Shown here: one piece after another, positions 16,201 through 53,774 of the stretch | Layout: each line of letters opens with the position of its first letter | Numbering within the stretch: the first letter of the stretch is position 1 | From: Coptis chinensis | Lineage: Eukaryota; Streptophyta; Magnoliopsida; Ranunculales; Ranunculaceae | Direction of reading: 5' to 3' | NCBI GenBank assembly: GCA_015680905.1 | Contig: CM027383.1 | Coordinates: forward strand, 87,143,001 to 87,207,000 | Length of the DNA: 64,000 bases | Made by a program: the position numbers and the translations under genes | The notes under the pieces: generated by a model | Seen by the model: only the letters and a program-made list of their open reading frames with translations | Databases searched by the model: none | What the model was told of the DNA's origin: nothing

Positions 16201-16445
16201 TGCTACCTCTTTTTCCCATGCAGCTTCATTTCACACTAAATTGCCCCAAAAACTTTCTCTCATCAGAAAATAGGATTGATTCATCCTAAGCTAAAACATG
16301 TTTTGGATTTGTATAAGCAACGTTTCTCTACTATCTCTCTCATCGAACTCTCTCACTATCAAAAACCCACTTCGTATTCTATTAAGCTTCAAATATGCCG
16401 ACTGTTATGCAGAAAATCAAATATGAAGATAAGGTATGCCATTAC
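16201..16445 (+). other. Possible 5' exon (UTR plus 13 codons) of an unidentified gene
   Basis: A CT-rich leader precedes the ATG at 16395, which encodes MPTVMQKIKYEDK and then meets the donor-like AAG|GTATGCC. A CTTTCAG acceptor-like site near 17157 could continue the frame briefly (QHEDEKQH, stop). A PPR fragment lies between them. This is weak evidence for a real or former gene. Confidence 0.25.
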
Positions 16446-16623
16446 TTTAAGTTTCGTATAAAACCCTTAACTCAATACAAAAACCTTAATTTGATTGGCA
16501 CCTGTTTAAGGTTTTGGTTTAATTTATTGTTGTTTTGTCTAATAAAATTATATCTTAAACACACAAAATATGTAATCATGTAAAATTTATAAAAATATCT
16601 CAAAGTATTACACTCTTCCTTTA

Positions 16624-17035
16624 GTCTTAAGAGCTTGTGCTAGCACTGGTATGGTTTATCGAGGCATGTCAGTGCATGGGTTGTGTGTTAAATGGGGATT
16701 TGAGAAGAACTTGTTTGTTGCTTCAGCATTGGTTTTTGTTTATGTTACTACAGGGAGGATTTACGAAGCGAAAATAGTGTTTGATGGGATGGCTAAAAGA
16801 GACATGGTGTTTTTGGCGGCGATGTTTGCTGGATATGCCCAACATGTGGAGCCATTGCTGAGTTTAGAAGTATATAGGAACATGGTTTGTGAAGGGGTGG
16901 AATTAAATGGTGTTGTTATGGTGAACTTCTTGTTGGTATGTAGTCAATAGAGATGGTTGAGGCATGGGAAGAGTGTTCATGGATGGTGTGTTAGGAGATC
17001 TTTGGTATCAGAATTGTTCTGTCTGGGATTTACTT
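16624..17035 (+). pseudogene. PPR protein fragment (PLS-type repeats)
   Basis: The text LRACASTGMVYRGMSVHGLC, then FVASALVFVYVTTGRIYEAK, IVFDGMAKRDMVFLAAMFAG and EVYRNMVCEGVELNG has the helix spacing of pentatricopeptide repeats. LRACA, VHG, VFDGM and DMV mark the PLS-class RNA-editing type. About 100 codons are open (16651-16950), then a stop. Similar words continue (GKSVHGWCVRRSL) until about 17035. Full-length PPR proteins are 400-900 residues of RNA-binding repeats sent to organelles. This is an orphan fragment without start or C-terminal domain. Confidence 0.7.
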
Positions 17036-17419
17036 AAGGTTTGCTAATTCGAATTTGAAACCCAATTCAAATTCTAATAGATTTCCCTATTTATATTTCG
17101 TGTAAATAAGTTGCCATCTCATCTCTGATTATCTTTGCCTTCTATTTCTTTCTTTCAGCAGCATGAAGATGAGAAACAACATTAGTATGAGAGTAAGCAT
17201 ATTGATCATATTTTTTATTTATTTATTTATTTATTTATTTATTTTATTGTGTGTATAGTTATTGCATTATTTGCAATACCTCAAGATAATAATAATATGC
17301 TAGATGATAGATAAAAAAAAATGGCATAATCGATAAACATAAATTTAGTGAATCTAACACTATGCTAATCCTCATCTAATAGAAAATTCAGCTCGAAAAC
17401 AACTACAAAAATAAATTTG

Positions 17420-17945
17420 ATAGATCTAACACTACGCTAATCCTCATTCAATTCTGATAAATTATTTGGAATGCTTAGGTAGTCCATATCCCAATTTGGT
17501 TCTCCTATAACCAATGCTTCATTTATTGCCTTCAAATAGGCATTTTCTTTTCTCAAGTGTTCAATATATTGATGAAGTTTTTTTTCTCCAGTATTTGCTT
17601 CATGTAGCTCTTCACGTTTAGTAACTACTTCTTTGTGGTTGACGTCTAAAACCTCAAATTTGTATATCTATTGTAGAAAGCAAATAGCATTTCCTACAGC
17701 TGCATTTTCTAAGTCCACTTTCTTAGCTTGATACGTCCCCAGAAATGATTGGCTTGTAGGATAATTAGGATTTTTGAAGATTTCTCTCATTATCGGCAAA
17801 TTTATTATGACATCTACAACGTATTGGTTTTTTCAATCTTTGATATGTAAAATGGATCTCCATGAATTTTTTCCTTAATAAGAATTTCCCTCAACACCGT
17901 CTTTAGTAAAATATTGTGTTTGGTTTCATACTCCATGAGCTACAT
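17420..17945 (-). pseudogene. Coiled-coil family pseudogene, copy 3
   Basis: The minus strand starts MEYETKHNILLKTVLREILI near 17940. After a frame break it gives INLPIMREIFKNPNYPTSQS, then LENAAVGNAICFLQ, a stop, YKFEVLDVNHKEVVTKREEL and YIEHLRKENAYLKAINEALV. The layout (short N-terminal helix, middle segment, leucine-rich coiled coil) matches copies 2 and 4. At least two frame breaks and a stop disable it. Family unknown. Confidence 0.45.
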
Positions 17946-18444
17946 TTTAAAAATCACAATAGTTAATGATTTGGAATGTGATAGTAACTACAACAAAATG
18001 TTCTCTAATTTGAATGGGAACAGCTACAAATTGTCAACTAATTAGTGAAGAAGTGTTTTGGTTTAATGAAGAAGGTAACATTAATAACCATAGTCAGTTG
18101 TCAATAATTTAAGTTTATTTAACACTAGCAATGCCAATTTGAGACCTTCAAAGCTTAATGGTATTAATGAATTCAATGGTATTAATGGATTGGGAAAATA
18201 TCTAAGGAAAAATACCACTCCATATAATCCTCAACACCTCGTGATGCTAATTTACCATTTCCAGGCCTACTTTTACTCTACCAACGTTTTGTTAGTTGAT
18301 GGCAATCATTTCGAGGAAGAAACAGCGAGAACACATACATTCTCTGCTTGTGTCAAGTTCGAAAGCACTAGGTGAAAACCGGCGGAAATAGAAAATAAAA
18401 CTCATAGTTAGAATGGAGAAAAAGGTTGTAATATAGCATGCTCT

Positions 18445-18720
18445 TTGTTAAGCAGGATGACCAATGGCATCCCTCCCAATGCGTTCAGTTATACCATCTT
18501 GATTCAGGGGCTATGTAGAGGCAGAAATTTGGAGGACGTTGTTGACTTTTGTGTTGAGATGTTGGAGGCTGGTCATTTCCCCAATGTCTCTACATTTACC
18601 ACTTTGATTGATGATTTTTGCAAGGACAAAGGGGTCCAAAAGCAGAGAGCATTGTTAGGAGGTTGAGAGAGAAAGGGTTTTTTGTCAATGACAAATCTGT
18701 TAGAGAGCAGTCATTTAAGA
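18445..18720 (+). pseudogene. PPR protein fragment (P-type repeats)
   Basis: About two 35-residue repeats are readable: SRMTNGIPPNAFSYTILIQG, LCRGRNLEDVVDFCVEMLEA, then GHFPNVSTFTTLIDDFCKDK. After a frame change RRLREKGFFVNDKSVRE follows. The NAFSYTILIQGLCR and NVSTFTTLIDDFCK signatures are diagnostic of P-class PPR proteins. There is no N-terminus or targeting peptide. It is a gene fragment unrelated in register to the PPR piece at 16624. Confidence 0.7.
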
Positions 18721-18942
18721 TATAATGCTTAGCTTTTCGAGAACTTGCAAAGCAAACAACTATGTAAGATACAACGTTCTGACATATCCATGCAAACGGC
18801 TAAATGCATATGAGAATTCAACTAAGAAAAAAATAATTTCTTCATATTTAAAACAAAGTAACTAATATTCAGAATAATAAGTTTTCAATCGGATTGCAGT
18901 TCTACTCGATTGAGTCTTTTTCTAGGTGAGAGTCTGGGCAAT

Positions 18943-19467
18943 ATCATTAGCTGTTGCGATCATTGGAGTCTTTTATAATGTTGACTATTTCTGCATATTT
19001 TGTACCAGCCTTCTTCAAATCGATGTTCTATTTCTCCAAATCAATTAATTGTTGCTGAACACCAATGTGGTGAACCTGAAGAGATTGTAGTAGTACACTT
19101 AGATAATGATTTGTCTCTTCAAGATTGTTTATCTGGATTGTTGCTTCTTCAACTTGACTATGTCTCATTAATAATTCTTTGAAATTGAAGTCTTTGATTT
19201 CGAATTCATTGATATGATGCAAATAACCAAGTGCTTCTTCAGCTACTGCATTTTCTGATTTCAATTGTGTTACTTTGGGAGTTCTGTGAAAGTTTCAGTC
19301 ATTTCTTCGTTTGTGCGTAAAACTTGTACTTGTATAGTCACATTTGAAGTATATGTGTCTCCATCTAAAATGGTGTTGTATATAGGTTCTTCATAAATAC
19401 CGAGTGATAGTAGTACGGTATTTAGTATTGTTCTTCTTGAAGCTTGAATAACTCTGGCGTAATCCAT
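18943..19467 (-). pseudogene. Coiled-coil family member, copy 4 (frameshifted)
   Basis: The minus ATG at 19467 (MDYARVIQASRRTILNTVLL) opens 65 codons: SLGIYEEPIYNTILDGDTYT, SNVTIQVQVLRTNEEMTE. A small frameshift near 19268 leads into VTQLKSENAVAEEALGYLHH and INEFEIKDFNFKELLMRHSQ, then a leucine-rich coiled coil (TNHYLSVLLQSLQ). One stop near 19028 precedes a readable tail ending DSNDRNS. It is the most complete copy, with two lesions. About 170 residues is the inferred original length. Function unknown. Confidence 0.5.
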
Positions 19468-19795
19468 TTCTCTATAATAAATAATTTTATCAAGATTAGG
19501 AATACGTCTTAGTTTAGAATGTTTATAGTAGAATCAACGTTAGCTAAGTGTGCAAGGAGGCAATTTTTTTAAATGATTAGGGATTTGATGTTGTTGTTTG
19601 AAAATTAAGTGGTTGAGGTGAGTGCTGAAAAGAGACAGAAGATTTTATAAATTAAATGTCAATGGGGGAGCCATTGACACATATAATAAGCTTTTCTCAT
19701 GGTTGCTAATAAAAGACATCATAAAAGAAATGACTAAAGTAAAGTAATAGCTCTATGAAAAATCATATGTCTACGCCTCAATCTGGGAGAGTCCT

Positions 19796-20002
19796 TTGAA
19801 TTTGAATTTCCAAAATCAAGAGTCCTATAATTGGCTTTCAGTGGTACAAAGCTTTCTACAATTGTTCATATCATCCACTTGGCGAGAAGCTAATTTTTCA
19901 GCTGATCAAGCTGCCAAGAAAGCTACTACCCTAGACCATTTGGAACTGTACACATATGAAGGGAGGTCACCCTGGCTATATAAATGGGAGCCCCCCTTTT
20001 AA
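19796..20002 (+). pseudogene. RNase H-like fragment, probably from a LINE
   Basis: The text SSTWREANFSADQAAKKATT matches the C-terminal RNase H signature (H.RREAN..AD.LAK) found in plant LINE ORF2 proteins and related RNase H-like genes. The start is arbitrary. No other LINE domain adjoins it. Confidence 0.5.
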
Positions 20003-20254
20003 CCTACTACAGGTTCACCTAATAAGTTTATACTCTAAGGGGCGGTGCACATGAATACATGATTGGTATGTATGTAGGAGGCCTACCTAGTAAGGTTGCA
20101 TACAATGATGTAACATGCCCCTTAATTTACATGTCCCTAGCTTTTCTTACTGTTCTTTGCTCTTTTTCCTTTAAATCTTAGTAACTCCTTTACATATATT
20201 TATATACACATATATTATCTGTTTATATTATTGGCATTATAGAACTTTCATTCT

Positions 20255-20735
20255 TTGTAGATAGAAGAACTACGTGCTGAAAGCCAACAATATGAATCAG
20301 CTGAAACAATTGGGCGCTCTAAAAGAGCTTCACTGCCCTCGTCACACACCAGCAGATATGTGGTACTGCACTCTAGTTCTCTAATGCTCTTTTACGCACT
20401 GAAAGTGCTCCAGTCTGCATACTCAGAGCCAATCTTTGTTCAATTACTATTGCCTTTGTGAAGGCTACCATTACTCTGTAATCTTTCTTTTGGGAGTTGC
20501 CTTTTTTAGCATCTTGTTAATGGGGTAATCTTTTCCGATTGGGGTCTAAGTGAACTGTCTACTGTTCAAGAAAGAAAAATGAATCAATGTTGATTGCAGG
20601 TGGCAACAGGGCAAGTAGCAAGAACTGGGATGGTTGTTAGCCAACAATCTGAATCAACTGGAACAATCGGGCGCTCTAAAGGAGCTTCACTGTCCTCATC
20701 ACACACTAGCAGATATGTCGTATTGTAGTGACTTA
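20255..20735 (+). pseudogene. Two copies of an unidentified exon
   Basis: The text ESAETIGRSKRASLPSSHTS followed by RYVV (near 20297-20370) recurs as ESTGTIGRSKGASLSSSHTS plus RYVV (near 20650-20728). The second copy is preceded by an acceptor-like TTGCAG and VATGQVARTGMVVSQQ. The Ser-rich, Arg-containing segment looks like a disordered protein tail. I do not recognise the gene. Solo LTR 2 starts 53 bp after the second copy. Confidence 0.4.
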
Positions 20736-20787
20736 GTTTGTACGCTAGAATGAAGAGGCAATATCTAGATGCACTTTGCATTGTTTT

Positions 20788-23700
20788 TGTCACACCCCGA
20801 ATTTCGACAGAATTCGGAAAAACATTATTTGTTCCCGACTCTTCGATCTCCGAGGTGTGACGCACTCTCTACTTCCAAAAACCCATAAACAGTTTAAATA
20901 TGTGGATAATTAAAAACCAATAAAAATTTTAACTTAAACAAAAGTCCTCTTCATTACAAAAATTAACAAATGAAAATGCAAATAACCTTATCTCAACTGA
21001 AAATCTATATCACCTCAAAGGAAAACAAAGCCTATCTTGAAATGTGACGTTAACGCAAACCACAAGCAAAATCTTCAACACTAAACTCATCAAGACTTAT
21101 CAAATATGTTCATTTAATGAACACACCCGATAAGTAAACATGCAAATCGGGTCGAAGATTATAAAAAATCTTTGGTGTGAGTAGCTCTAAAATACAACAT
21201 ATAATTATACATATATATACACAATCCATACGGCAGTTAGTTCCTCCATCGAGGCACCTTAACTTTCAACGACTAATACAACATCCTTAAGTTCAATAAC
21301 TAAGGTAGGTAGTTCCTCCACTGAGGCGCCTTAACTTCCCACTAACCACACAACAAACTATACTCATAATAAATAAGGCCTGTAGTTCCTCCATCGAGGC
21401 GCCTTAGGTTCTAACTAAACAAATAACCAACCATGCAAATTATATCCGTACCGCATTTCATGCTCAATTACAGAGTGGGTCGTCTCTGCCCAAGTAATTA
21501 GTTTGACCCACACTTCTGTAAAACCATATATAATCATCTATCTAAAGATACATCATTAACCAACACATTACCATAATTATATCAATTAAGGCTTTCTTTG
21601 TGTGTCCCTAAAATCACGTCGTATCTATGTCTTACCTAGTTTCCCTTACCACAATCACTTCCCAACCCGAACATGTACATCCACATGCCTCCCCTTACAT
21701 AATGAACCACTCGGCGTAACTACCCCCGAAAATGTCGCACACCGTAACCCTCACACGGAAGCCATTATGTAAGTAATGCCACTATTCGGGCATAAAATAT
21801 TGCGGCGTCTCGCTCTATTTTGCTAACGGAATAATTAAGCCACTATTCGCTATGCGAGAAGGGCCATTCAGATTCACCTCAAACGCCGAAGGGCCAATTA
21901 CATTACTTAAGCCGAAGGCCATTCAGATTCTTGAACGCCCGGAAGGGCCAATCACATTACTTACGCCCGAAGGCCATTCCATTCAGATTCACCGAACCGG
22001 AAAGGGCCAAATCACATGAGTTGTGGTAGCTAGGTTCTAGGATTTTCGTTCGTAATTTATTCAAGTGTCATCCATCTATGACTCATAAACATTCCACTAT
22101 ATACATGTCCCTATCTTATTGCACTAAGCCACAATATTTAGAAATATCTTAATTATATTTCATAACCACTTTCATTCTTTCACGTGCCAATATATTATTG
22201 CACTAAGCCACAATCCCGTGGGCAAATATTCACCAATACTATACTACCTCATAGTAGCATCTCACATATATAATAATGAAGTGTTTATACATTTATTTAT
22301 CCAAAACTATTGCATTTAATATATATATCCCAACATATTATATAATGTCACAATATCAACGTCAAATCTTAATTAGATAATGACCACCAAATTTATACAA
22401 GCTTCCACAGCATTTTAGCATTTGATTTGTCCATACAATTTACAACATAAAATGTAGCACAATTGAACAGTCCACAGTCCACAATCAAAGCCCAATATAT
22501 ATATATATATGTTTTACACACTACTCACGTCAAATCTTAATTAGATAATGACAAACAACGTTATATAATGTTCGACAATATTTTATTATTACAATAGTCC
22601 ATAAAATCAAATATGTGAAAAACTGGAAAAAGTCAACATTCCACAGTCAACGGTCAACGGTTAAAGTCAACGGTCAAAGTCAACGGTCAATGGTTAATGG
22701 TCAAAGTCAAACGGCACCAAACCTTTAGAACCCAAAAGTCTAAAACCAACTTATTTATGCCACCGACCCGATTGGGGACATAAGGACCACCCCACATAAA
22801 ATTAGAAACCTCCGCCCAAAGAAACTAATTGGAAACGCCCCAAACAAAATAAAATAGAACTGGGTCCAAACTTAACAAAAACCGGTGCGCCCAACAACTA
22901 GAACTAAAGCCCAACAATTTAAAACATAACCGGGCCCAATCAAAACAAAACAAACCAGCCCAACCAAACAACCCAAACCCAAGAGAAACCGGCCCCCAGC
23001 CCAAGCCCAGCCGGTCATCTTCTTCTTCCTCAAAGCCTCCACTGGACCACCAAAAATCACCACCACAACCTCCACACACCACCCTACACAAACCCAATCG
23101 ATTTTAATCCCCATAATAAACCAAACAACATTAATAAAACAAAACCCCAAATCATTCAATCCCTATACTTCATCAAAACTAGATCTACAATATTTCGATC
23201 TCCATTAATGGTTCCTCAAGCTTTAATAGCTGCCCCCTCACTCTACTACACTCCCCCACTTCAACTAATCATCAATTCACCACACAAACCACCGAAAAAC
23301 AGTTCAACACATTTTACTGGAGTGTTTGGGCGAACCGCCATTAACAACTTCCAAGGTTCAGCAACCCCCATCCTTCAGTACACGACCCAATCACAGTTTA
23401 ATCAACACACTTCACCCATCCACCCCGACAGTTTCACCATCGATTTCAATCTCGACAGTTTAACCATCGATCACTCACCCTCCACCAAATCGCGAAGACG
23501 CCATTGATGAACCGTTGCTTCAAAGAAATATCAATAACCAACCTCGAATCCACAAAGTAAAAACTAAAGACAAGGGTTCAAATAAAAAAGGTCCGGACAG
23601 GTGACGCCATTAATGGCCTATCAGCTTCGATAGTTAAATGTCGAGTTTCCGAGTCTCAATAGAGTTTAATCTAATAATACGACGGCGAAAAATAACCGTT

Positions 23701-24067
23701 GAAAATGGGCGGAAACATTTGATGGACAAAATGTCTCGTATACCCGTAAAACTAAAATATATGTTCGATGAAAAAAAAACAACATAACGACTCACCAGAT
23801 ATTAGAGCTCCTACTGAATTCCTCCGAAGTCCGAATTCCGCTCCGCTCCAACGCAAAACAAAACAGCCTCCATTTTTTTTTTTATTATTATTTTATTCTC
23901 TAAGAACCCTATTCTCCAGAGTGATTATATACTTGGGTCGGAAACCCAAGCCCAACACAGACTCGGGCCCATAAATCAGGCCCACATGTCCCAAATCCAA
24001 TCCAACAGATTTTTAAATAAATAAATAAATTAATAAATAATTACGTATTTTAAATACGGGCGTTACA
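20788..24067. mobile_element. Solo LTR 2, Ty3/gypsy type, 3.28 kb, TSD GTTTT
   Basis: The left end is TGTCACACCCCGAATTTCG and the right end ATACGGGCGTTACA. The flanks GTTTT at 20783-20787 and 24068-24072 are identical. There is no internal retroviral coding sequence. It shares its termini and general layout with solo LTR 1, including a GTCAACGG-rich stretch near 22640-22710. It has its own arrays: GTAGTTCCTCCATCGAGGCG three times about 72 bp apart (21235-21415) and GGGCCATTCAGATTC words near 21860-22000. Confidence 0.82.
21232..22020. repeat. Tandem subrepeats inside solo LTR 2
   Basis: Two arrays: three units of about 72 bp built on AGTTCCTCCATCGAGGCGCC, and four or more shorter units built on CGAAGGGCCATTCAGATTC. 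Confidence 0.65.
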
Positions 24068-26829
24068 GTTTTCTTCTAAGGTAATATGCTTTTGAAATTG
24101 TTTTTCATGTTGTCAAAACGTAAAAGGAGAGGAAAAACTATAGAGGGCAATAAAAAAATATATTAAAAAATATTCAGATATATTAAAATTTTAAAATAAG
24201 TTACATATCCTATCCCAAATAAAAAAGTTATATAGAAGTTACATAAACAAAAGTTGAAGAAACAAAAGAGGAATATGTTACTTTATAAATTTTGTAAATA
24301 AGAGGAATATGTCGTACCTGTATGATTGCTTGACTTGAATTATAGAATAGCCTACAATATTCAAAAAAAGAATTTAGAAACTGTCAAAATATTTTGATTA
24401 ATCGTAGGATTTATATTTATAGTACTTGTTTTTTCTAATAATACCTATGTTAATTTGAGGAGAGAAGCTTTGTAGATTAGTGGAGTATTGTTTTTGTTTG
24501 TGATTTATAGTTGTTTTTCTGGAAACATCTGTAGGTATTGAGATAGTTATAGTAGTAATAGAGTTCTAAGACTTCTAAGACTGTCAAGTATTGTGTTAGT
24601 TTTAGACTTTTAATTGTATAAGACTTCTAATTGTCTAAGAACTGAGTTAGCTTTAGACTTTTAATTGGGTTGCTATTATTTGGGTTGCTAGATTGCCTAA
24701 TTTAAGACAGCGAACCAAGCTTACTCCTTGGTCAAGCTTTTCTGGGTAAGAAAAACAAAAAGAATATGGCGACAAAAGTGTAGTGGAGATGAACCAACCC
24801 ACAGGTGCATTCTTGAGTTCTCGAGTTCAATGTAAATTGAAAATCTAAACCACATTAGAATTCCCAAAACAAATGGTAAAACAAACAGAACACCCAAAAC
24901 AAATGATTAAAACCAAAGACCTTAGGTAAAGTTTTAGACACTCAATAACTACTTATGTTTGAACCAATAATCATAGTGCAAAGACAATCAAATGAAATTA
25001 AAACCGATCAATCAATACCAAATTGCTCATGAAATTGTCGAATTCCTTAATTTAGAGAGAAGAGGAGGGAGGGTTACCTGATTATAGGAAAAACTTCTCC
25101 GAGAACTGATATGAAGAGATGATTTTCAACTGTTTGTGCAGGAGAAGAGATAGAGAGAGTGGCGATTAGGAAGGGAGACTTGTAGGTGTCAAAAAGGTTT
25201 TGGGGAGAGGAAAGGATGGGTTGGGGTAAGAGAAAACCCAAATGATTGCCTTAACTCCCTCCATGAACCACTTAGCCCACCTTTGGATGGAAATATGGAA
25301 TCCCAGCTGTTGAGCGCCAAACCAACCCTGTCTTGTTATATTGATTTTGATCATACATAAATGAAAATAAAGGTGAATGAAATAGACGGAAAAGCTACGT
25401 GATTTAATATAATTTTCCTAAAAAAATACTTAGGACAGCTTTCAAAGCATTTAATGCATTATTTTTAGCAAAGTATTTGAGTAAGATAAGAGGAATAAGA
25501 CAGCTTTCAAAAGCTAGAGATGGACAAATGTGAAATGTCTTAGAAAATGATGTGTGGGGACGGTCGATGCTACGAATGCCCTGGTTCTTCTTACAGAGTA
25601 GGCAGTTTTTGACTTAGTTGTGAGGGAATGGTCTGCTGGTGGGATGAATAAGGGCTTCATAATGGTTTGCTGCTCTAGGCGGTGAGATTGTTTAGGGTTA
25701 CTGAACAAAAGGAACCTCGACTTTACAAAGTCTAGAAGAAATTATAACCGAATGACCCAACTGAGAAGGGCAACGTATCCTCTGCAATTACACATTTCAA
25801 ACTAATGAAAATTTTCAGCCACGAATAAGATGAACAAATTTATTACGATTAGATAGCTAGGTTATTGGTTAGAGTAGCTGATAAAATAAACAAACATTAA
25901 AAAATCAAGTGCACTCTCAAGTCGAAACACATCGGATCCCAAAAGGGTTGAATATGGGTTCAACATTGGAAATGAGTCCATATTGCGAGCCTACCTTTTC
26001 ATGGTATGTAAGTCTTACCATATCTATTAAGGTTTTAGCAATGGGTGTTTGGTTTAAATGTTGTTCTTGTTGACTGCTACAATGGATATATAAACAATTA
26101 AGCATCATTTCATGCTTTATAAACATTTACTTATATCCTGAGAAGCTTTATGGAAAAGGATTATCTAACGGCGATAACTTGGTATACTAAGGTAACCAAA
26201 AGTATATTTTTCAAGAGTACTTTCTACTTGAGGTGTTTTTTCACTGGTCATTTTTTTTAATTTTTCGTTATAAATCGCTAAGTGCAGATTATGAAATAGG
26301 AACAATGTTCCTGTATCCAATATGATAGAATACACAAACTTTTAAATAGGAACACACACAAAATTTGGAGTGTGTTATCCAAAGTAGAAAAGGGGAAAAT
26401 CTAATACATTCTTCCCATACTTTAATTCATGATCAGCCAATGTCACTATGGGGTTATCCGCATTCTCTTGAGGCATTTGAGATTTGTGTTGGTTTGATGA
26501 CTTTGCCAGCCTCCTTCCTGCTCTCTTTGGGTGGTGCTAATGTACAACGTACAATTTGTACTTAACCAAATTGTTATGATAAAAGATAAGGCTATTGTGT
26601 TTTGCTCTCTTTTCACCCTTTAATAAAATAAAATAGTGCAAAGATCTTATTAAGATCACATCAAAATGTCTAAGTGAGAATGTAATTTCTTGAAAAATCA
26701 ACACACTTGAAAAAAAGAGAAAAGTGGAGGTTATACTCATGGAGAGAGTTTAGGGCCATAGACTGCAGCCTATAATGTTGAGTGACACGGTGAGCTGCAA
26801 GCCGAAGATACGGTGTAGGAAAATGTTGA
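24068..26829. other. No recognisable gene
   Basis: AT-rich intergenic sequence. A degenerate duplication around 24560-24700 repeats TTTTAGACTTTTAATTG. Short frames at 25166-25354, 25514-25708, 25917-26126 and 26365-26565 show no known motif. Confidence 0.45.
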
Positions 26830-27060
26830 AACTTGAACTACTGCTTATCATGGTTTTGCATAAAGCGGAAACTAACATCAACTCTGCGAAAGCCATGTAG
26901 TTGACATCCTTGCAACGTTTTCTCTATAGCTTGTAGCTCCTAAAAAATAACAGAATTCCTTCCATAACCACCACGAAAAGGCAAGACAACTTCAGCTAGA
27001 TGGTCCATTGCAGCACTACCATATTTAACGCCAGTAGACCTATTTAGATTAAAGTTAACA
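26830..27060 (-). pseudogene. RNase H-like domain fragment
   Basis: The minus strand reads GSAAMDHLAEVVLPFRGGYG, then RNSVIF, a stop, ELQAIEKTLQGCQLHGFRRV. This resembles the RNase H core (G...D..G..V..F.GG.G.....E..A...GL....G...V) of plant LINE-derived RNase H proteins. It lies just past the Helitron 3' coding end and may be unrelated to it. Confidence 0.4.
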
Positions 27061-27177
27061 CTCTTTTACAGCTTGTACCCTAGACCTAAAGTGAAACAAT
27101 CAATCTGATCCGTAGGAGATCTGCTGCCATGCCATTATGGCAGTCACTATGTCAGAGCTTGGCATCTCCAATTTCTT

Positions 27178-29179
27178 AAATCCAATTCATACATTCTTTC
27201 CTATAAAACATATTAAATATTTGTATTAGGCAAGAAATTAATATATATTTATTTAACTTGTTTTTATTTTAATCTTGTATGTGATTTATCTTGAATGTAA
27301 AATAGCTAAATTAGGACATACCTTGAGTTGATATCTTCATATTGAATTGAAAACTTCTTTATACACGATGTTCTTTGTGCATCCTTCAGGTTCATTTCGG
27401 TCTTTTTTTATTAGGAATGTCAATCCTTTTCTTGAGGTGGTTCGCGAGACATCAACATATAACTGGCCATGTGGGAAAATTGGTTTGGGTAAATAAACAC
27501 CAACCTTATCAAAAGTCTGACCTTGACTTTTGTTTATAGTCATAGCGATACAAGCTTTGATAGGAAATTGTTTCCTCCTGAAGGCGATAGGCCATTTTGT
27601 GTCACTTGGAGACATAATCATTCGGGAATAAAAATTGGTTCTCCTATCTTTGTTTCAGTAATAATTGTTGCTTCTATGACTTTTGGAGCAATATTTGTCA
27701 CTGTGAGTCTAGTACCATTACACAGTCCTTCACTTTGATTCATGTTTCACATCAGCATAATAGGGACTCCATGCTTAAGCTTCAGATTGTGGTTGGGTAC
27801 TCCGGAAAATTCCAAGTTGTTTAAAAATTATGTTGGATACAGAACATCTTGTTCTGCGCACTTTCCTGGGATTGGACATAGAGAGTCTGCACTTACGTAG
27901 CTTTTTAAATCTCTAGAAATTTTTGAAACAACTGCAGAATTTATTTTGTCTACTATGTCATTCTTCGGTGCTAGAATGCTCCTCTCTTTCAAATACTTAA
28001 CTTCTGTATTATTCACCAAATCTGGATAAATGGTGCTGATGATATCTTCAACTGAGTTGTCACTTTCTGGAATGAGTAAGTCATTAGGTATTTTGATCTA
28101 AGTCGGCTTTATTTCTTCGTTCATTGCCTTTGCAGGTAGGTTCCCACCTCCTAGATCTAGAACCCATTTGATTAATTCATCTACAGAACTAACAATGCCA
28201 TAGTCCATCACATCACTATTAAGTCTCATGTTTTCACTCAAGTGAAAAACTTGGCAGTTTTTCCAAAGTTTTGATTTGTTAATGGAAGCTTTAACAACAT
28301 CAATTCTTTTACCTCTTGGTATGACTGACAAAATCTGTCTGAAATCTTCACCCATGAGAAATGTCTTTCTACCAAAATCTCTAGTATCTGGTTTCAATAA
28401 GTCTTTCAAAGTACGGTCAACAGCCTCCAAAGCCGTGCCTATGAGTCATTGGAGCTTCGTCCCACACAATAAGGTCAGCTTTTGAAATAAGCTTGTGTAG
28501 TTTTGAACCATGAGAAATGTAGGTATCATAATTTTAAACCTTGAATGCGTTGTTCGTCACCTGGTAAAAGAAGTGATGCTATTCCCAAAGAAGCAACTGC
28601 AAGAACAATTTTACTTTTAGAATAGAGTTTTGAAATGATAGTCTTGTAGAGATATGTTTTCCCAGTTCCCCCACTTCCATAGACAAAAAAAACACCTCCA
28701 GATTGCGTCTCAACTACATCAGTTACACAGTTCTAAACATTTTTCTATTCATTGTTGAGACCGTTATAGAGTTTGATATGTTCGTTGTGCAACTCTAAGC
28801 AGTTGTAATCCAATTCTTTAGCAATCAATTTGTTACCATAGAATGCTTGTGAAGAAATATTAAATTTAGGAAAACCTTCAATATTTGTAAGTGTTTCCCC
28901 CCTACGAACCATGATATTCTCAATCTCACAAAGAGTATCATTCTTTATCTGGTCATCACTTAGTTGGAGACTTTGGTTGTGGTTGGTTTTTTTGTAACGA
29001 AACAAAATATCTTCACCAAGGCTTTTATGATGATTTTCAAAAAATATTTCTGGAGATGTAACCTCACACAACAAGATTAAAGTGACAAAAAGTTCTCTTA
29101 AAGAAGCTAGATTTGCCCATTTACTGTCTTGCTTCATAGCATCATTCCATTCACTGTCGTCCTTTAGCAAACCGTATGC
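27178..29179 (-). pseudogene. Helitron PIF1-type helicase region
   Basis: After the acceptor ATTACAG|GCATACGG the exon reads AYGLLKDDSEWNDAMKQ. The Walker A motif GSGGTGKT lies near 28670, then the Walker B text LIVWDEAPMTHRHGFEAVDR, the GEDFRQILSVIPRGKR motif, and AMTINKSQGQTFDKVGVYLP with the VSRTTSRKGL motif near the C-terminus. This is a superfamily 1 PIF1-like 5'-3' helicase. Stops occur near 28740, 28100, 27835, 27750 and 27620, plus frame changes. A donor at 27322 (CTCAAG|GTATGT) and an acceptor at 27200 suggest a short last exon. Confidence 0.82.
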
Positions 29180-29339
29180 CTGTAATCCAAAAATGAAGGA
29201 TTACATAATATAAAATGAAAATCTTGATAATCACATTTTAATTATCCTCAACATTACATATTATCATTATGTTTAGTGATACAATGTCAATGATGAGATC
29301 TTGGCCACTAAAGCAAATAAATTAACAGGACTTGAAGTA

Positions 29340-29580: not shown

Positions 29581-30840
29581 CTCAAGATTTTTGAAGACTA
29601 AGTATTTTATGAGAACAGGAGATATCATTAAGTACGACATAATATATATTCTGATGTCAAATAACATATAACTTTAATAATAATGTTAGACTTTTATTGG
29701 AATATAATAATGGTCTAGAGGGATACTGCTTAATATGTTACTATATCACAAAAAAGCTGTTAGTAGTAGATGGACAATTGAAGTAGTTGAAAGATTACCT
29801 GACACGCTGCTTTAAAAGTTGGATGTGGGGTTCCATTAATTGTACGAATATCTTCATAACTCCTAGGTCCTTTAACAACATTAAGCAATATTCTTAAGTA
29901 GAACCTTTCACCTAATGTAGGATGTGTGTAGTAAACTCGTCCAACTGATTTTCCTTGTTTTCGTAGAGTCCACTTATTATATTATTTTTTTCCAAACAAA
30001 TTTAGTTGGGAAATCAACATACGTAAGTGTCCTGGCTAATTCATACTCTTCATTTGCCTTGAACCATTCTGTAAACTTTGTTTTGGACGCTTTTTCACGA
30101 CACACTACTACCTTTGGATGATCTTTCTCACTGTAGTATACTATATTATGACCTTCAAGATGGAATGGCAACCGCTCGACACTCGGATTTCTGTATTGTA
30201 TATCAAAATTTAGAATCCTCCAAACTCCTTCAGAAGAAGAAAGAAATCGATAGTTTAAGAAGTTTGATATTTCATCAACATCCCTGACAATTTGTTCCTT
30301 ACTGTTATTGTCAGTCACTACATTCTCAACAATCATTGCAGATGCTCTATCCTTTCCCTTGTTAATATACTTGAATAAGTACTTGATTAACTTTGCTTTG
30401 TTCCAATGTTCAACATTTATGTGAGCTTGAAACTTCACAATCAAGTCCACATTGTGTGGAATAACCCATTTGTTATCAAGAGTTATTCTGTCTTTGTGTG
30501 CAGTTCGACCATTGTCTCTCCTCATATAGACTGTGAAGTCATTTTCGTCAATCGTTGTCTCGGTACAAAATGGTTTCGGATAGTGCCTAGAGCATTTTTT
30601 ATTCCCATCATCAATTTTAACCATGCAAAGAGAATTTGGTTTAGACTCGCCACATGGACCATGAATCATGAATACCACAACTGTGCATTATACGTAACTT
30701 TGTCAGCCAAGGATTAGGCAATTCGGCAGATATAACTCTGTTGACTTGCGAAGGGGTGGAAGGCTTTGCCGAGTTTTCTAAAAACAACAATATATGAGCA
30801 TAGGGCAAGCCTGTCTTTTGGAACTCTATTGTGTAGAGAG

Positions 30841-33287
30841 CTGCAATTAATTGGAAGTTAGTATCAGATTTTCATACTTTAATAATATAATATTTACTAA
30901 AACTTAACAGTATATATAAAGACTTTCTAACAAATTGTTTACATATGTTATGTAAAGAAGTTGCAAACTAACAGAAGCAATGGAAATCAACTAAGAAGTG
31001 GACCACTTCACCACTTTTTGATTGACTGTTCAAACTGAGTTTAGAAAGGGATAAAATGGAAGGAAACTATTACTGATGAAAATTAGGCTTGTTTTTTATG
31101 ATAAAAGTAGTAGAGACATAATCATATAATTCCGTATATGTTAGCATATGTTTTTTCAGGTGAGTGAAATGAATGAGAAGGTGATTGGATTTAAACCTCT
31201 ATAAGTGGCTGTGACTCAACACAAAGAAGAGAGGAAGGCAAGGCTGTAGGTGGTGTATTTTACAAAGACTATATGTGTTTTGAATTTTAAACAAAATTTC
31301 TAAGCTAGTCTGATCATGGGTTCCCATTAGGTAGCGCTGAGAAACTAGCTTTGGTTTTAGACTGTCAGTCTAGTGTAGGTACCGCATGTTTGATTTGGTG
31401 TCTGATACAGGAATCCTCATCTAATTTTTATTATGGGATGTATACACCACCCTCAAGCGCATACACACGTAGTCACAATAAATATAGGTTTCCTCCCCCT
31501 CCCCCTAATCAGTGTTTGATGGATATAGAATTTTGTGTTTCCCTGTCTTCATTTTATGTTATTTTAGTCTTTCGCTAATCGTTGTAGGAGTTGGTTTTTG
31601 TTTTGATCCGTAGGAATTTATTCTTGATATTATGCTAAACAGATGCGATTTTCCTTTTCAAACTTAGATTCGTCTGTAGTCAATTTTTTTTTCTTCCCTC
31701 TCCAGGAACAATTTACTCGTGATTCGAAAGCACCTTTTAATGTGGCACCAAGATTATCGGTATGCTTGGTTTTCACCACAGTGGACCAAGGCTACCCCCT
31801 CCATAGCTGTATTTTGGCCCGGTGGTCCCGGCTTTTTGCCTCCACCGGTTTATGGCTTCCCAACAACAACCTGTTACACTGGATTCGACACGGATTGCCC
31901 CTAACTATATAGCTCCATACCCTCATCAAACCGACCAAAGACACCGGACTGACAGGGATGGGTTTTCAAGGAGAAGTACTAACAATAGTACTAACAATGT
32001 TAGGGGGGTTTTTTATGTGTTAATAATAGGTTATTTTAATTCTAATTCAAACCTATAAAGCAGGTAAAGGTTTCTTCCAAGAACTCAATGACAACAGAAG
32101 CGACAGGAGCAGTAAAGGTTCATGAAAATTTTGGAAATGAAAAAGGAACATAACTTTGCTGCTGTTGTATTTGTGGATGCCTTGAGCTGATCCAAGACAA
32201 AGATTTGATAGTGTTACATGACATGACACCACCGATAATCTGGAGTTTGAGCAACTCGAAGACCTCATCATTGTAGAAAAGGATGTTGTGTAAGAGCTGG
32301 ATTAAATGTTAATTACTAATTTGATTTCGTTCATTTGAGAATGTTTTATTTTACATTGTACAAAGTCTGATTTTGTGAATGTGAAATCGTTGCAGATCCT
32401 AAATACATGATTCAAACTAAAATTTTAGCACTTGGTTTAGAATGAAGTTGGGATATTCACTATTAGGTTCCCCTGGTTCAAAATGACTAAAGAGAGACTT
32501 TTGCAAATATTGCTCTTTGTTGGGAACTCTAAATGGGTGACATTGTGATGCGTAAGAGCACTATTGAGGTAAGGATCATGGTTAATCTTTCCTGGTCTGA
32601 AAAAGTCCCTGAAATTGGATAGGCAAGAACTAATCTCTTGTAAGGGTTTTTGAGTATTGTTTGTGGCTTTTCTAGTATAACATCATATCTGTGCTGCAAT
32701 AAAAATTTATTTGTTTGTTATTCATTCAATTCATGTTTGTTCACGTGTTATTAATCTTATAAGTACTTATGTTTCTTCATTCATTCAATTCATGTGGTTG
32801 TTCACTTGTTCTAACTCTTGTAAGCACTTATGTTTCTTAATGTTTGTAGCTTTCCCCCTAAATCCAACAACTAACCCAGATGCTGAATTCAGTTATGGTG
32901 TTGGACATATTGATCCTGTAAAGGTTGTACGTCTTGGCTTAGTCTATGATGCTATTGAAGGCGACTACCTAAAATTTCTATTCAACATAGGGTATACTAT
33001 GGAGCCGACAAAACTCGTATCATTCATGTATATTTCAAGAGCTCAAAGCTAGGTATGTGCCTGTCTATATTACAGCGTGTTATCATAGACTACTTTCTTG
33101 TTTGGATCATTTAGGCATATATTTTTTTTTTCTATATTCAGCATCTATTTATAGATTAATTATATATTTGAAGGGGAGATATTTTTTTCTTAGCAATATG
33201 ATAATCATAAAGTCTACAAATTAAGTAAAAAGTTAAAAATTACGAAAGAATAAGTTATAAACACAACTAAATTAGTAAATTACTTAC
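30841..33287 (-). other. Long Helitron intron (2447 bp) with foreign sequence
   Basis: The donor WAG|GTAAGTAA (33287) and acceptor AATTGCAG|CTCTC (30841) restore the Rep frame when the interval is removed. The content is foreign: a subtilase exon on the opposite strand (32850-33052) and open segments near 31640-31990 and 32053-32290 that I cannot identify. Comparable Rep introns are usually much shorter, so it has grown by insertion or capture. Confidence 0.65.
32850..33052 (+). pseudogene. Subtilisin-like protease (subtilase) exon fragment
   Basis: An acceptor-like TTTGTAG precedes FPLNPTTNPDAEFSYGVGHI, then DPVKVVRLGLVYDAIEGDYL, KFLFNIGYTMEPTKLV. A donor-like AG|GTATGTG follows. G.GH..P..A..PGLVYD...DY..FLC is the text next to the catalytic-Ser exon in plant cucumisin-type subtilases. 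Here Pro of PGLVYD reads Leu and the Cys of FLC reads Phe. Only one exon is present, with short flanking intron sequence and no other subtilase part nearby. It is a captured or transposed gene fragment. Confidence 0.75.
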
Positions 33288-34778
33288 CTGCCCAAGATTT
33301 TCCGAACCTTTTACGTTTTTGCAAATCCGTCATAAGTTCATGCAACTTGATCTCAAAAACTCTAGCGACAATTTCAGGGAAATCGACGTGTGTATATCTA
33401 GGATCAATCTTGTCAATACATTTTTTAACTTCAGGCCATTTAGGATTGCAAGTAAAAGTTATGAATAGATCAGGAGATCCAGCCCACCGACAAATCACAA
33501 TAGCGTCTTGATAGTTTTGCAGCATATAACGTGGACCTCCGGTGAAAGAAAATGGTAGAACTATTCGCCTTCCAACAAAACCTAGTTTTGAATCTCCAAA
33601 AAGTACTGCATCAACTAATCCTTGATAAAGCTCAGCACGAATAGTCTGCTGGTTATTTCTAACCCAATCAACTCTAATCTGTTCTACAGCACAGTAAGAA
33701 TCAACAATAAGTTGTTGTTTCAAGCGTCCACTAAGAACAATTATTTTTCCTTCTTTTAGTCTCATTTGCAATCTGAAAGTGTAGAACTCCATCATGCTTA
33801 TGTTTGTCCTTTTCCCAACTTTGATATTATTCCGATAAGGGATATCAATCTTATATCCGTCTTCAGCATGAGGAAACAAAAGAGGATATTGCATGGGCAT
33901 GAAACTTGGGTGCAATTCATTTATTCTTTTCAGGCCATATCCTTTTTTGTCCACCACAATATCATGGTAATTACTAAATTCACTCTCTTCCTTAACAATA
34001 AGTGCAACAACTTCAGATGATGTCGGCATGTTATAAAGTCTCCCATCTTTTTGTCTTGTACTAATAAGTTTTATACTTAAATCACCAACTTCAGACTCTT
34101 TAAACATGTCCCTTGCCATTCTATAAGTCTCAGTAAGTTTGTTTGTATTGTTCAACATATCTATCAATCCCTTCACAATATCTGGATCCAACTCTTCTTC
34201 AGACCCATTTGTCAAAAAATTCTTACTAAGAGAGTTCATTATGTTCACAACTTCATTATCAGTATCATATATGTAAATTGGGAAAACTTAGGGCATAAAC
34301 CTTCAGGTGGAAGCAAGGTACCAATTTTGTGGTGGTTTTGCCCTTTTATCTTGTAGACGTATGGACCATGACCATTGTTTATTGATTCTTGAACATCACC
34401 TCCTGTGGATGTAAAAGCAAACATGTTGTTATATACTTTGATATTTTTCATAAACTTTTTGAATCTGGAGCCAGAATTACAGTTCATAAGCTCATTTAAA
34501 AAATAATCAGGTGTATCTTTCAAAAAAGGTAGTTGAACTTTCCCTCCACCGCAACATATAGAGAACTTTAGATTTTTAGGATTTTTCGTTCGGTCATTCC
34601 TTTCTTCATACCAAACAATGGCATCACAGTAAGGACATACCGATGTTGGTTCTCCAAAATCCAACGGTTGGAAACAATGCCCTGAATTAAAATGAATATT
34701 AAAAACTATAACTAATAATATTAAAAATAAAATAATATTAAAAACTATAACTAATAATATAACTAATATAATACTTAC

Positions 34779-35066
34779 TTTCATGAAAAAATTCACTTGG
34801 TTTCTCATTGGAAACTTCAACTTCCATATGGTCATTTGTATCGTTTTCATCTTCTACTTCTGAATCAATCCCACTGATTTGAGAATCGTAGTCATCGTCA
34901 CTTTCTCCAACACTATCCGGTTGATATAAGTGAATTTTTCAGGAATAATGGTTGTCATCACTTGTTTCACCATCACAATTAACATAACCATGAGCTTTAC
35001 TTAATATACGTCTTCTTTTATATTTACTATTTTTAGATTTTTCATTATTTGACTATGGTCCATCCA
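34779..35066 (-). pseudogene. Helitron gene exon 3: basic-acidic linker
   Basis: This 288-nt exon (96 codons) begins VDGP, a stop, SNNEKSKNSKYKRRRILSKA, a nuclear-localisation-like basic run. A second stop follows DDNHYS. Then comes an acidic stretch, SVGESDDDYDSQISGIDSEV, and MEVEVSNEKPSEFFHE before the donor. Exon length is a multiple of three and the entry and exit phases (1 and 1) connect HD2 to Rep in frame. The words (I/M)EVEVS(Y/N)EK occur in both this exon and HD2, suggesting shared origin. No domain is recognised. Confidence 0.6.
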
Positions 35067-35136
35067 CTATATAAGAATAAAACATATTAATTACAACTCA
35101 AAGGCAAGTAATAATGAACAATGAAGAATGTTTTAC

Positions 35137-35388
35137 CAGGTTCATTAGGAAACGACTGGGAACTGTGTTTATCTTTTTTGTATTTGACTCGGTGATTCCT
35201 AAACCAATTCTTTATATTATCTTTTGAAATTTGACCATGTACTAACAATTCCGTTGTCAAGAGTTTGATTTCTTCCTTAGTATAATATGAACTTTTTTGA
35301 TTAAATGCACTTTCAAGTATCTGAAGCTGCATCGCTATTGCGGACCAACGTTTCTCATATGAAACTTCAACTTCAATATTGTTATCCA
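35137..35388 (-). pseudogene. Helitron gene exon 2: WOX-like homeodomain HD2
   Basis: The 252-nt exon (84 codons) encodes VDNNIEVEVSYEKRWSAIAM, QLQILESAFN, TKEEIKLLTTELLVHGQISK and DNIKNWFRNHRVKYKKDK. The W-F-x-N-x-R helix 3 and the LTTELLVHGQI helix 2 resemble WOX13-type domains. It is open throughout. The donor ACCTG|GTAAAA is good. The acceptor position, found by alignment with the next exon (TTATATAG|TGGATG), reads TTATACAA|TGGATA, so its AG is mutated. HD1 and HD2 are diverged copies of each other, and the introns after them are also similar. Confidence 0.72.
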
Positions 35389-35489
35389 TTGTATAAGAAT
35401 AAAACATATTAAGTAAACAAATATAACTCAAGTAACAATGAACAATAAAGAAGGTCTTAACATCTATTGACAAAACTATAATGGAAGAC

Positions 35490-35694
35490 CTTCCACTTGT
35501 CCATTCTTTCTAGATCTCTCCCGTTTGTTATAAAACCACTTATTCACATTTGTTTCTGTAACCTCACTATGTTCTTTCAACTGATTTGTGATATCTTGGA
35601 TTTGCAGTTGAGTAGGTTGATTGAAATGATTGAAGGTCTGCTCCAATATTTGAATCTGCATCGTTGTAGGACTCCAACGTTTTTTGGTCGTCAT
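35490..35694 (-). pseudogene. Helitron gene exon 1: WOX-like homeodomain HD1
   Basis: The ATG at 35694 opens MTTKKRWSPTTMQIQILEQT. Helix 2 follows as IQDITNQLKEHSEV, then helix 3 NVNKWFYNKRERSRKN. The W-F-x-N-x-R core is that of a homeodomain. The RWSPT.MQ.QILE start, the longer loops and the N-V-x-x-W-F spacing match WUSCHEL-related (WOX) domains, where the usual text is NVFYWFQNHKARER. The exon ends GQVEG|gtcttcc in phase 1. The domain is fully open with no stop. WOX proteins are plant DNA-binding developmental regulators. Here the domain lies directly 5' of Rep on the same strand. Confidence 0.75.
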
Positions 35695-36847: not shown

Positions 36848-37010
36848 GTATTATTTGGAATCAAGCCAGATGGAAAGAAGAAGTTCATTAGTCAACTTCA
36901 AAAGGATTAAAAAATTATAGCCGTGGTCGGCGATGGAATCAATGATGCAGTTGCCTTGGCAGCATAAGACATTGGAGTTGCCATGGGTGGAAGTGAAAAG
37001 GATCAAAAGG
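36848..37010 (+). pseudogene. Cu-transporting P1B-type ATPase fragment (PAA/HMA-like)
   Basis: The text GIKPDGKKKFISQLQKD, a stop, KIIAVVGDGINDAVALAA, a stop, DIGVAMGGS ends in the donor-like AAAAG|GTAAGC. GDGINDA is the hinge motif of all P-type ATPases. KPD.KKKFI..LQK plus the DIGVAMG context resembles the chloroplast copper ATPases PAA1/PAA2. Full proteins are about 900 residues in the envelope or thylakoid membrane. Only about 50 codons remain, with two stops. Confidence 0.72.
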
Positions 37011-44445: not shown

Positions 44446-44867
44446 CTAGCTTGTAGGCCCGTGCATACGCACCGGCTCTTTTGAAAACATTTAGATTTTT
44501 TTTAGAAAATTGGGATTATCATTTTAGTCGCTAACCCATTTTAATTTTCTAACAAATTGTTTTAAATTAAGTTTTAATTAAGTTTTAAAAACCCATTTTT
44601 TCAATTGGGAGAGAGATCCTGTTTTAATAGGAGAATAATTCCCATTTTAATTAGATATGTTAGATTTTCTCTTTTCAATAGGGAAGGTATTCCCATTTTA
44701 ATAGGAGAATGATTCCCGCTTTAATTAGAAGTGCCAGAATTTGTTTTAATAAGAGAGGAATTCCGGTTATAATATGAGAGAAATTCATGTTTTAATAGGA
44801 AATGACGTGGAATTTTAATAGAGCTCGAAAAATACCTCTTGTGGGAGCTTTAATATTAAGATATAGA
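44446..44867 (-). mobile_element. Non-autonomous Helitron, 422 bp
   Basis: In minus orientation it starts TCTATATCTTAATATTAAAG and ends with an imperfect hairpin (CCGGTGC-GTAT-GCACGGG), ACAAG and CTAG. The insertion lies between A (44445) and T (44868) on the plus strand, as expected for Helitrons. There is no coding capacity. The interior is AT-rich with repeated TTTTAATAGGAGA-like words. Confidence 0.78.
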
Positions 44868-51778: not shown

Positions 51779-52744
51779 TCAGCAACAGATTGGGCAAAGA
51801 ACCAGCCCATTCTCATTACACTGACTACACCTCATAACAACTCTCCTCCCTTTCATTCCTTCAAACACCTTACAACTTCCATTACATTGAAAACAAGGTA
51901 AAAAACCAACACCACCACAACCATCACAAACAACCCCAATTTTCGCTTTTGGTAAACCTTCAAGTAAATCACTCAAACAACCTTCTTCATGTATTCTCAA
52001 CACTTCCTCTGCTCCACCTATATACCTTCCTTTAACAAACACCTTTGGTAGAATAACCATTGTCCCATTTTCTTTCCCTTTCATTAACTCCTTCAATTCT
52101 TCTCTATACCCATAATGCATTGAAACGTCTCTCTCATTCACCACTACCCCCATTCCTTCAGTCGCTGCTCTAACGGCATTACACGCCTCAAATGTCTTCC
52201 TTACACCTCTCAACGTCGTCGTGTAGATTACCACTTTGTTCTCTCCACCAGGTGGGCATTTTTTCTCGAAGTCATCAAGCGAGTATTTCACATAAGAAAG
52301 TCTTGGGGCAGTAAAACTAAACGGCTTTAGAACACTGGTTGCAAGTCGAATAGGCCTATTCGGGTCGCAATTCTCTTTACTATAACCAATGAAGTGCTTT
52401 GGAGACTTTGCGATACGAGAATCGAGCTCGGCCACAGTGTGAAGGAGAGATAAAGAGGTTTTGGAAAATGGGGATGGGCTAAATCGAGAGCTTTCGCAGT
52501 CTAAATCAGCCATGAGTTCCCATGAGTTGATAACTTCCGGGTCAGAACGGAGGGATTTGGGTTCAGGAAGAGGGCTTGGGAAGAGAGAAACTAGGCCAAA
52601 TCTAGGTGGAGTTGGTGGGTCAATGGTTAAGAGACCATAGGTGGAAGAAGTGAGTGAAACGATGTGGTGACCGAGTCTTGAACCTCCGCCCAGTTGCGAG
52701 AAATCGTCGTCGTGGTCAAGAAGAGTTGATGATACACAGCCCAT
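51779..52744 (-). CDS. Glutaredoxin-domain protein with C-terminal CxxC cluster (intact, single exon)
   Basis: The 321-residue ORF is uninterrupted. It starts MGCVSS, an N-myristoylation site (Gly2) with a palmitoylable Cys3, so membrane attachment is likely. Residues to about 165 are low-complexity, Ser/Pro-rich. A glutaredoxin fold spans about 168-270: NKVVIYTTTLRGVRKTFEAC, VVVNERDVSMHYGYREEL, ILPKVFVKGRYIGGAEEV. The usual active-site CxxC/CxxS position reads RGVRKT, so thiol-disulphide catalysis is unlikely. The tail has four C-x2-C pairs (CDGC, CFQC, CSQC, CPIC), as in the plant family that includes At5g39865 and At3g28850 and probably binds zinc. It lies between broken F-box and cyclophilin genes, with no sign of decay. 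Confidence 0.92.
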   Translation of the reverse strand: MGCVSSTLLDHDDDFSQLGGGSRLGHHIVSLTSSTYGLLTIDPPTPPRFGLVSLFPSPLPEPKSLRSDPEVINSWELMADLDCESSRFSPSPFSKTSLSLLHTVAELDSRIAKSPKHFIGYSKENCDPNRPIRLATSVLKPFSFTAPRLSYVKYSLDDFEKKCPPGGENKVVIYTTTLRGVRKTFEACNAVRAATEGMGVVVNERDVSMHYGYREELKELMKGKENGTMVILPKVFVKGRYIGGAEEVLRIHEEGCLSDLLEGLPKAKIGVVCDGCGGVGFLPCFQCNGSCKVFEGMKGRRVVMRCSQCNENGLVLCPICC

Positions 52745-53774
52745 TTTGTTGTTGAGACTTGAGAGATAGTGAAGTGAAGCAAAGGTGAAGAGGTGAGTTG
52801 ATAAAGAGGGGTGACCTTTTTTTTGGTTTGAAAATTTTCAAATTTGGATTCAGGCGTTCTAGGCGGAATATTTAAATGTTGGAGCTACAGAGGCTTGGAA
52901 TACAAGTGTTTAATGAGCACAAATTTCGAATACTTGATGTTGATGCCGTGCAACAAGGCCAAACCTACTTTTACGTGCACTGTTTAATTAACCAAACGTC
53001 CAAAGAGTCAAAGACACCGAAGGGAACGTGAATAAGGTAAACTTAAGAGTAGAGCAACACCAATTTTGCTGGAAATCAACAAATCAAGTGGGCTTTGTAT
53101 ACTACGTCTAAGTAGTGCGCAAGAATAATTCGTAAGCAATGATTGGAATAGTTTCAGCTGAACTAGGTAGGAAGGATATGGGAATGGTCGGAAATTGTAT
53201 TTAATAGAACAGAAAATATCACCCTATATCCTCACTAACCAGTAGAGACAGTGATACATATATCTCAGCTCCAATGTCATACATACTGATCAGTACCATT
53301 TGGGAACCTCGTGCGCTTTGAGAGCTGGATGGAAGAAGCCACACAGCACTATTTCAAACTTTTTGGAACCCAATCCACTCTTTGATGAATCGGGTGTTAA
53401 CAGTTAGATACTGGGCTTTGCAACAAAAATTTTAATTTTATAGCGTGATCAGATACATTCCTTATGGACCTGTGCACTGACAGTAGGTAATTTGGTACTA
53501 AACCAAACCTCGCTCTTGCATGAACTCCCCAGCAATCAAGAATCCTCGAGCATGTATTTAAATAATTTAATTGAACAAAGACAGTGTAAGGGTCCAAAAT
53601 CCAATATACGTTACTAAGTTCTTTGACAGGGGGGGGGCAGTTCTCCAAAGTTCTCATAATGTCCCTACTGCTAAGATAAACTTTACCTAACACGGTATCA
53701 GCAGCATAAAAACAAGGAAAAGAGAGGTCTGTTTATCATTTATAAAAGATGAAACATTCTGATGAAGAATGCAA
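52745..53774. other. Intergenic region: glutaredoxin promoter and cyclophilin 3' flank
   Basis: The first about 100 bp is AG-rich and likely the glutaredoxin 5' UTR (minus strand). I see no coding motif in the rest. The open frame at 53397-53693 has no recognisable features and is near a GGGGGGG run at 53629. Confidence 0.45.

Follow-up and report, generated by a model that had tools for sequence, protein, structure and literature searches.

Organization of the locus

The window, i.e. the whole stretch of 64,000 nucleotides of Coptis chinensis DNA analysed here, harbors on its minus strand the remains of a Rep-helicase gene of the Helitron type. Directly 5′ of Rep and on the same strand lie two exons, each of which encodes a homeodomain (HD1 and HD2), followed by an acidic linker exon. 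In the direction of transcription the order of the domains is HD1, HD2, linker, conserved N-domain, Rep and PIF1-like helicase (Table 1).

Table 1. Features of the homeodomain-Rep-helicase locus, listed from 5′ to 3′ on the minus strand in window coordinates.
Feature	Position	Strand	Basis
HD1 exon of 205 nt, phase 1 at its end given a donor at 35489	35490..35694	-	Pfam Homeodomain, WUSCHEL match
Intron 1, HD1 to HD2	35389..35489	-	aligns to intron 2 along 79 nt with 81% identity, E 9e-17
HD2 exon of 252 nt, phase 1-1, EVEVSYEK at its start	35137..35388	-	Pfam Homeodomain, STENOFOLIA match
Intron 2, GT...AG, phase 1	35067..35136	-	sequence and join
Acidic linker exon of 288 nt, phase 1-1, C-terminal EVEVSNEK	34779..35066	-	join, segment alignment
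Intron 3, GTAAGT donor, TTCAG acceptor	34682..34778	-	sequence and join
Rep, first part: CPYC start, conserved N-domain, beginning of Rep; reading frame changes near 34280	33288..34681	-	Helraiser 7lcc, PF14214
2.4-kb intron inside Rep, CAG/GTAAGT ... TTGCAG/CT	30841..33287	-	reading frames; joined translation continues the Helraiser alignment
Rep, second part; frame change near 30690	29977..30840	-	Helraiser alignment, frames
PIF1-like helicase remains, in-frame stops and frame changes	27337..29200	-	PF05970

Elsewhere in the window a reverse transcriptase remnant (RVT_1, E 6.7e-7) is located at 11006-11581, and imperfect AT-rich tandem units of about 74 nt each are found at 44598-44819. An intact-looking glutaredoxin frame with a GRXCR1/2 C-terminal domain at 51782-52837 is probably a host gene within a transposon-rich window.

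Rep-helicase remains

The first Rep exon opens with a CPYC stretch, CPYCDAIVWYEER, and from its residue 31 onwards it aligns to residues 134-236 of Helraiser (7lcc) with an E-value of 1.2e-15, so that the homeodomains and the linker occupy the slot of the first ~100 residues of Helraiser. The conserved N-domain is recognized by the Helitron_like_N profile (PF14214, E 2.6e-38), Rep joined across its 2.4-kb intron aligns to Helraiser residues 469-738 (E 3.9e-63), and PF05970 matches downstream of Rep with E-values of 4.7e-20 and 3.9e-25. Both Rep tyrosines are kept in the segment KYLFKYI (30367-30381), which is the same in Helraiser. The HUH motif has become Y-A-H, with GLPYAHILL (30794-30802) versus GLPHAHILL in Helraiser, i.e. 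a tyrosine at the site of H593; the coordinates of both motifs stem from a hand count in the open frames. Frame changes between the Rep and helicase pieces are located near 34280, 30690, 29980, 28500 and 27800, some of them possibly introns, and besides the two in-frame stops of the linker described below there are two near 28740 and one at 28098.

According to the accessible part of the Helraiser study, mutation of H593/H595 abolished transposition, and proteins without the N-terminal 489 residues displayed neither binding nor cleavage of single-stranded DNA (PMC4778049). Given the loss of transposition in these mutants, the exchange of histidine by tyrosine in the HUH motif identifies the locus as a decayed Helitron remnant and not as a working member of the group. 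The present copy is a dead pseudogene.

Two further segments in and around this gene resemble pieces of other genes. Within the 2.4-kb Rep intron, the plus strand at about 32830-33050 resembles a C-terminal piece of a subtilase and is possibly a captured gene fragment; a Pfam search of 32681-33052 returned no family. Upstream of HD1, the plus strand at 36910-37010 encodes AVVGDGINDAVALAA*DIGVAMGG, which resembles the hinge motif of P-type ATPases and which is possibly another captured fragment.

Two homeodomains of the WOX type

The preliminary description had placed two homeodomain exons on the Rep strand immediately 5′ of Rep, and the Pfam Homeodomain profile bears this out: HD1 (open frame 35476-35694, minus strand) reaches 44.9 bits (E 1.1e-11), and a score of 46.5 bits (E 3.2e-12) is obtained for HD2 (exon 35137-35388, minus strand), compared to a cut-off of 22.9 bits. 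Both domains are complete and free of stop codons. The W-F-x-N-x-R signature of helix 3, also claimed before, is kept in either domain, with W48, F49, N51 and R53 present in standard homeodomain numbering. The same applies to the WOX-like loop spacing, as 60 residues cover 55-56 profile positions in HD1 and HD2 and thus include extra loop residues. The two domains share 35% identity with each other (blastp E 5e-14), and the remaining tblastn matches of either one inside the window have E-values of 0.49 or worse.

In a sequence search of the PDB, HD1 matches WUSCHEL (5e-10) and STENOFOLIA (3.3e-8), followed by an animal homeodomain at 0.0043, and HD2 matches STENOFOLIA (1.3e-6) and WUSCHEL (2.4e-5), again followed by an animal homeodomain (0.0026). 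As judged by these matches, WUSCHEL and STENOFOLIA are the nearest solved relatives of both domains and the label WOX-like is right. AlphaFold2 models, computed from two-sequence alignments, place three helices at the homeodomain positions with mean pLDDT values of 80.7 and 74.1. None of the 17 and 18 matches listed by Foldseek against the PDB for the two models reaches E<=0.001, and the assignment of the fold hence rests on the sequence profiles. A WUS box (TL.LFP), which is absent from some WOX clades, was not found by eye in the joined HD1-HD2-linker-Rep frame, and for this reason the domains are classed as WOX-type homeodomains and not as a WOX gene.

Pairwise identities were calculated to four WOX domains, namely WUSCHEL and STENOFOLIA from the PDB search as well as a WOX13-like and a WOX9-like domain. 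HD1 is 37-42% identical to them (42% to WUSCHEL and likewise to the WOX13-like domain) and HD2 28-46% (highest to the WOX13-like domain, 46%), the host's own WOX genes lying outside this comparison; the identity between WUSCHEL and STENOFOLIA is 72%. Residue 50 is glutamine in all four WOX domains, tyrosine in HD1 and arginine in HD2, and due to this difference the binding preference has probably shifted. In the HD1-HD2 alignment 30, 46 and 30 of 64 codons are identical at their first, second and third positions, respectively; second positions are thus better conserved than first and third positions taken together (46/64 versus 60/128, Fisher p 0.0012), a result which a protein-based alignment favours. 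This is as expected for old domains which were once under constraint.

These values bear on the possibility that the Helitron passively captured exons from a WOX gene of the host, or from two such genes, and that these fragments are decaying without any role in transposition. The gene-like scraps described above, inside the large Rep intron and 5′ of HD1, would fit such a history, as would the capture and fusion of gene fragments by certain Helitron-like elements, described in the accessible part of PMC1852403. With an identity of only 28-46% to the four WOX domains compared, a recent capture appears unlikely. Furthermore, the homeodomains have remained free of stops next to a linker and a helicase which contain them and a Rep which has undergone frame changes, and their exons precede the N-terminus of Rep in a matching phase. 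Passive capture is considered quite improbable.

Exon joins upstream of Rep

The exon model of the preliminary description agrees with the sequence in its lengths and phases, the Rep exon starting from 34681 and all joins being in phase 1, and likewise in the donors and acceptors which lead into the linker and into Rep (introns 2 and 3, Table 1). HD1 and HD2 are phase-compatible, and the acceptor pair in front of HD2 is AA instead of AG, as had been noted. What had been overlooked are two stops within the linker: in the joined frame a TAG (VDGP*SNNEKS) and a TGA (DDNHYS*KIHLY) interrupt the reading, so that the chain HD1-HD2-linker-Rep is exact with respect to its phases but the joined protein cannot be made by the present copy. 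The decay of Rep-helicase had likewise escaped notice. The HD2 and linker exons are both symmetric.

HD1 possesses an ATG start, and its open frame of 72 codons is closed by a TAG at 35476; an ATG is also present at the start of the HD2 exon. Together with the broken splice between HD1 and HD2 in the present copy, these starts and the HD1 stop would suit a separate, unfused homeodomain gene carried beside Rep-helicase, similar to the separate RPA reading frames of plant Helitrons mentioned in the accessible parts of PMC4067079 and PMC5148889. Contrary to such an arrangement, HD2, the linker and Rep are connected in phase 1 by introns 2 and 3 with their GT-AG borders, and a duplicated segment is common to HD2 and the linker, as described in the next section. 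A separate gene is regarded as unlikely.

Duplicated introns and linker segment

The sequence identity between introns 1 and 2 (Table 1) is not reached in score by any of 1000 dinucleotide shuffles. The homologous stretch of intron 1 covers about 35389-35462, and at its end the TATATAG of intron 2 corresponds to TATACAA in intron 1. Since the AA of intron 1 aligns with the AG of intron 2, the acceptor in front of HD2 looks like a decayed AG at a genuine splice site. At the position of the intron 2 donor, intron 1 reads TTAAGACC versus GTAAAACA, with a GT one base upstream; this site is located 29 nt downstream of the HD1 donor proposed earlier (35489), which renders the HD1 donor uncertain.

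A second repeat connects the linker with HD2. The end of the linker, DHMEVEVSNEK, aligns to NNIEVEVSYEK at the start of the HD2 exon with a local score of 50; the best of 500 plain shuffles scores 29. By virtue of the copied introns and the EVEVS.EK segment, the homeodomain exons and the Rep-proximal linker have a common duplication history.

Duplication of one exon together with its intron does not fully account for the array, because the homeodomains are only 55% identical in DNA (30/64 third positions) versus 81% for the two introns. Two histories would explain the difference: homogenisation of the introns at a later time, or a separate entry of HD2 between two copies of a segment comprising intron and linker. 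The paralogous introns (35389-35462 and 35067-35136) at 81% beside exons at 55% reveal an uneven sequence turnover within the array. A candidate third copy of the intron at 27203-27238 was rejected, as 1 and 6 of 1000 shuffles reach or exceed its score of 29, and so do unrelated places in the window.

Element ends and searches for further copies

Helitrons begin with TC at the 5′ end, terminate in CTRR with a hairpin at the 3′ end, and insert between A and T. A strict scan of 15000-27340 for these terminal features gave 0 matches, and a lax scan of 18001-27340 yielded 28 CTRRT sites with weak stems only; a weak candidate for the 5′ end, TCTCTACTA, is located at 41790. With no convincing element ends found in these scans, the placement of HD1 inside the element is tentative. 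The termini missing from these scans would be in line with a chance neighbourhood, in which a Helitron landed in or beside an old WOX-like gene or pseudogene. Such a coincidence would have to account for the common strand, the direct adjacency, the symmetric phase-1 exons and the EVEVS.EK duplication common to HD2 and the Rep-proximal linker, and it is deemed highly improbable.

Further copies were sought in viral, prokaryote and plasmid collections, the outcome of which says nothing on plants. In viral contigs no relatives of Rep, HD1, the conserved Rep stretch or HD2 were found except for a single locus (37% identity over 46 residues, E 5e-6). This match is taken as chance, as it lies in a 517-residue frame resembling a replicative helicase; the reading frames of that locus appear phage-like by eye. 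In contigs of prokaryote genomes no relatives of the conserved Rep stretch or of HD2 were found, and HD1 gave no tblastn match against plasmids.

Proposed architecture and function of the ancestral transposase

The locus is probably the remnant of a canonical-type Helitron whose ancestral transposase gene encoded N-terminal tandem WOX-type homeodomains, a linker, Rep and PIF1, the homeodomains serving as a DNA-binding tether in the live copy. In this ancestral gene the two homeodomain exons and the acidic linker would have been spliced in phase 1 onto the N-domain, Rep and the PIF1 helicase. Homeodomains bind AT-rich double-stranded DNA and Helitrons, as stated above, insert between A and T. 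In the live copy the tandem homeodomains would most likely represent an added module for sequence-specific binding of double-stranded DNA. As the simplest mechanism, this pair may have tethered the transposase to AT-rich sites, either in the element's own subterminal or promoter DNA or in the target, and Rep and the helicase would cut and unwind while the homeodomains keep the transposase on the DNA. Such a gene implies that intact copies with the same order exist or existed, that one transcript joined the parts, and that the homeodomains had binding targets of this kind.

The preliminary description had proposed a Helitron lineage which took up a WOX domain, perhaps to direct insertion or to find its own ends. 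The WOX-like nature of the domains, their location on the Helitron strand, the compatible phases, the duplicated introns and the EVEVS.EK repeat all support the first part of this proposal; a working gene, however, is not present, the HD1-HD2 acceptor is lost, and the claim for a homeodomain-Rep lineage is based on a single decayed copy. Only tentatively is it proposed that plant Helitrons of one lineage acquired a transposase with two WOX-type homeodomains in tandem at its N-terminus, that duplication of intron and linker reshaped this array, and that recognition residue 50 changed in both homeodomains, by which the element gained sequence-specific targeting of double-stranded DNA, either at its own ends or at AT-rich insertion sites.

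We know of no Helitron that chooses its sites through a homeodomain. If true, a homeodomain-Rep transposase would constitute a natural experiment on how transposases can be retargeted. It would also exemplify the recruitment of a domain from developmental transcription factors into a mobile element, and the annotation of the WOX family would be prone to confusion with transposon genes.

Comparison with known systems

Among the matches listed in literature searches for helitron together with homeodomain or homeobox, evaluated by title, none concerns a Helitron protein that carries a homeodomain; the scope of these searches does not extend to InterPro architectures, to reports in Repbase or to the bulk of the subscription literature. 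Nor is a homeodomain-Helitron fusion described in the accessible parts of PMC5501002, PMC6482515, PMC1852403, PMC5148889, PMC4067079, PMC10642554 and PMC4778049, and words starting with 'homeo' are absent from the main text of both PMC5148889 and PMC4067079. The extra domains which these sources, as far as accessible, assign to Helitron-type elements are RPA, OTU, endonuclease and SET domains, along with zinc-finger-like motifs in Rep proteins (PMC5148889, PMC4067079, PMC4778049). In the accessible portions of two papers on the WOX family, Helitrons are merely counted near WOX genes (PMC5501002, PMC6482515), and one of them terms the WOX factors plant-specific (PMC6482515), which agrees with the plant origin of the window.

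In common with WOX transcription factors, HD1 and HD2 possess a homeodomain with extra loop residues and have WUSCHEL and STENOFOLIA as their best solved relatives. They differ from them by their low identity (28-46% to the four domains compared), by their arrangement as a tandem pair, and by Y and R at residue 50, which is Q in the four WOX domains compared. With the canonical Helitron Helraiser the locus shares the alignable N-domain, Rep and tyrosine pair and the PIF1 helicase downstream, whereas two WOX-type homeodomains and an acidic linker replace approximately the first 100 residues, a tyrosine occupies the H593 site, and the gene is a pseudogene. A Helitron-type element is likewise combined with a host-like extra domain in plant Helitrons, which carry separate RPA genes, and in Helentrons, which carry endonuclease, OTU or SET domains, as far as the accessible parts of PMC4067079 and PMC5148889 describe them; the extra domain at the present locus is a homeodomain pair which apparently is N-terminal to Rep.
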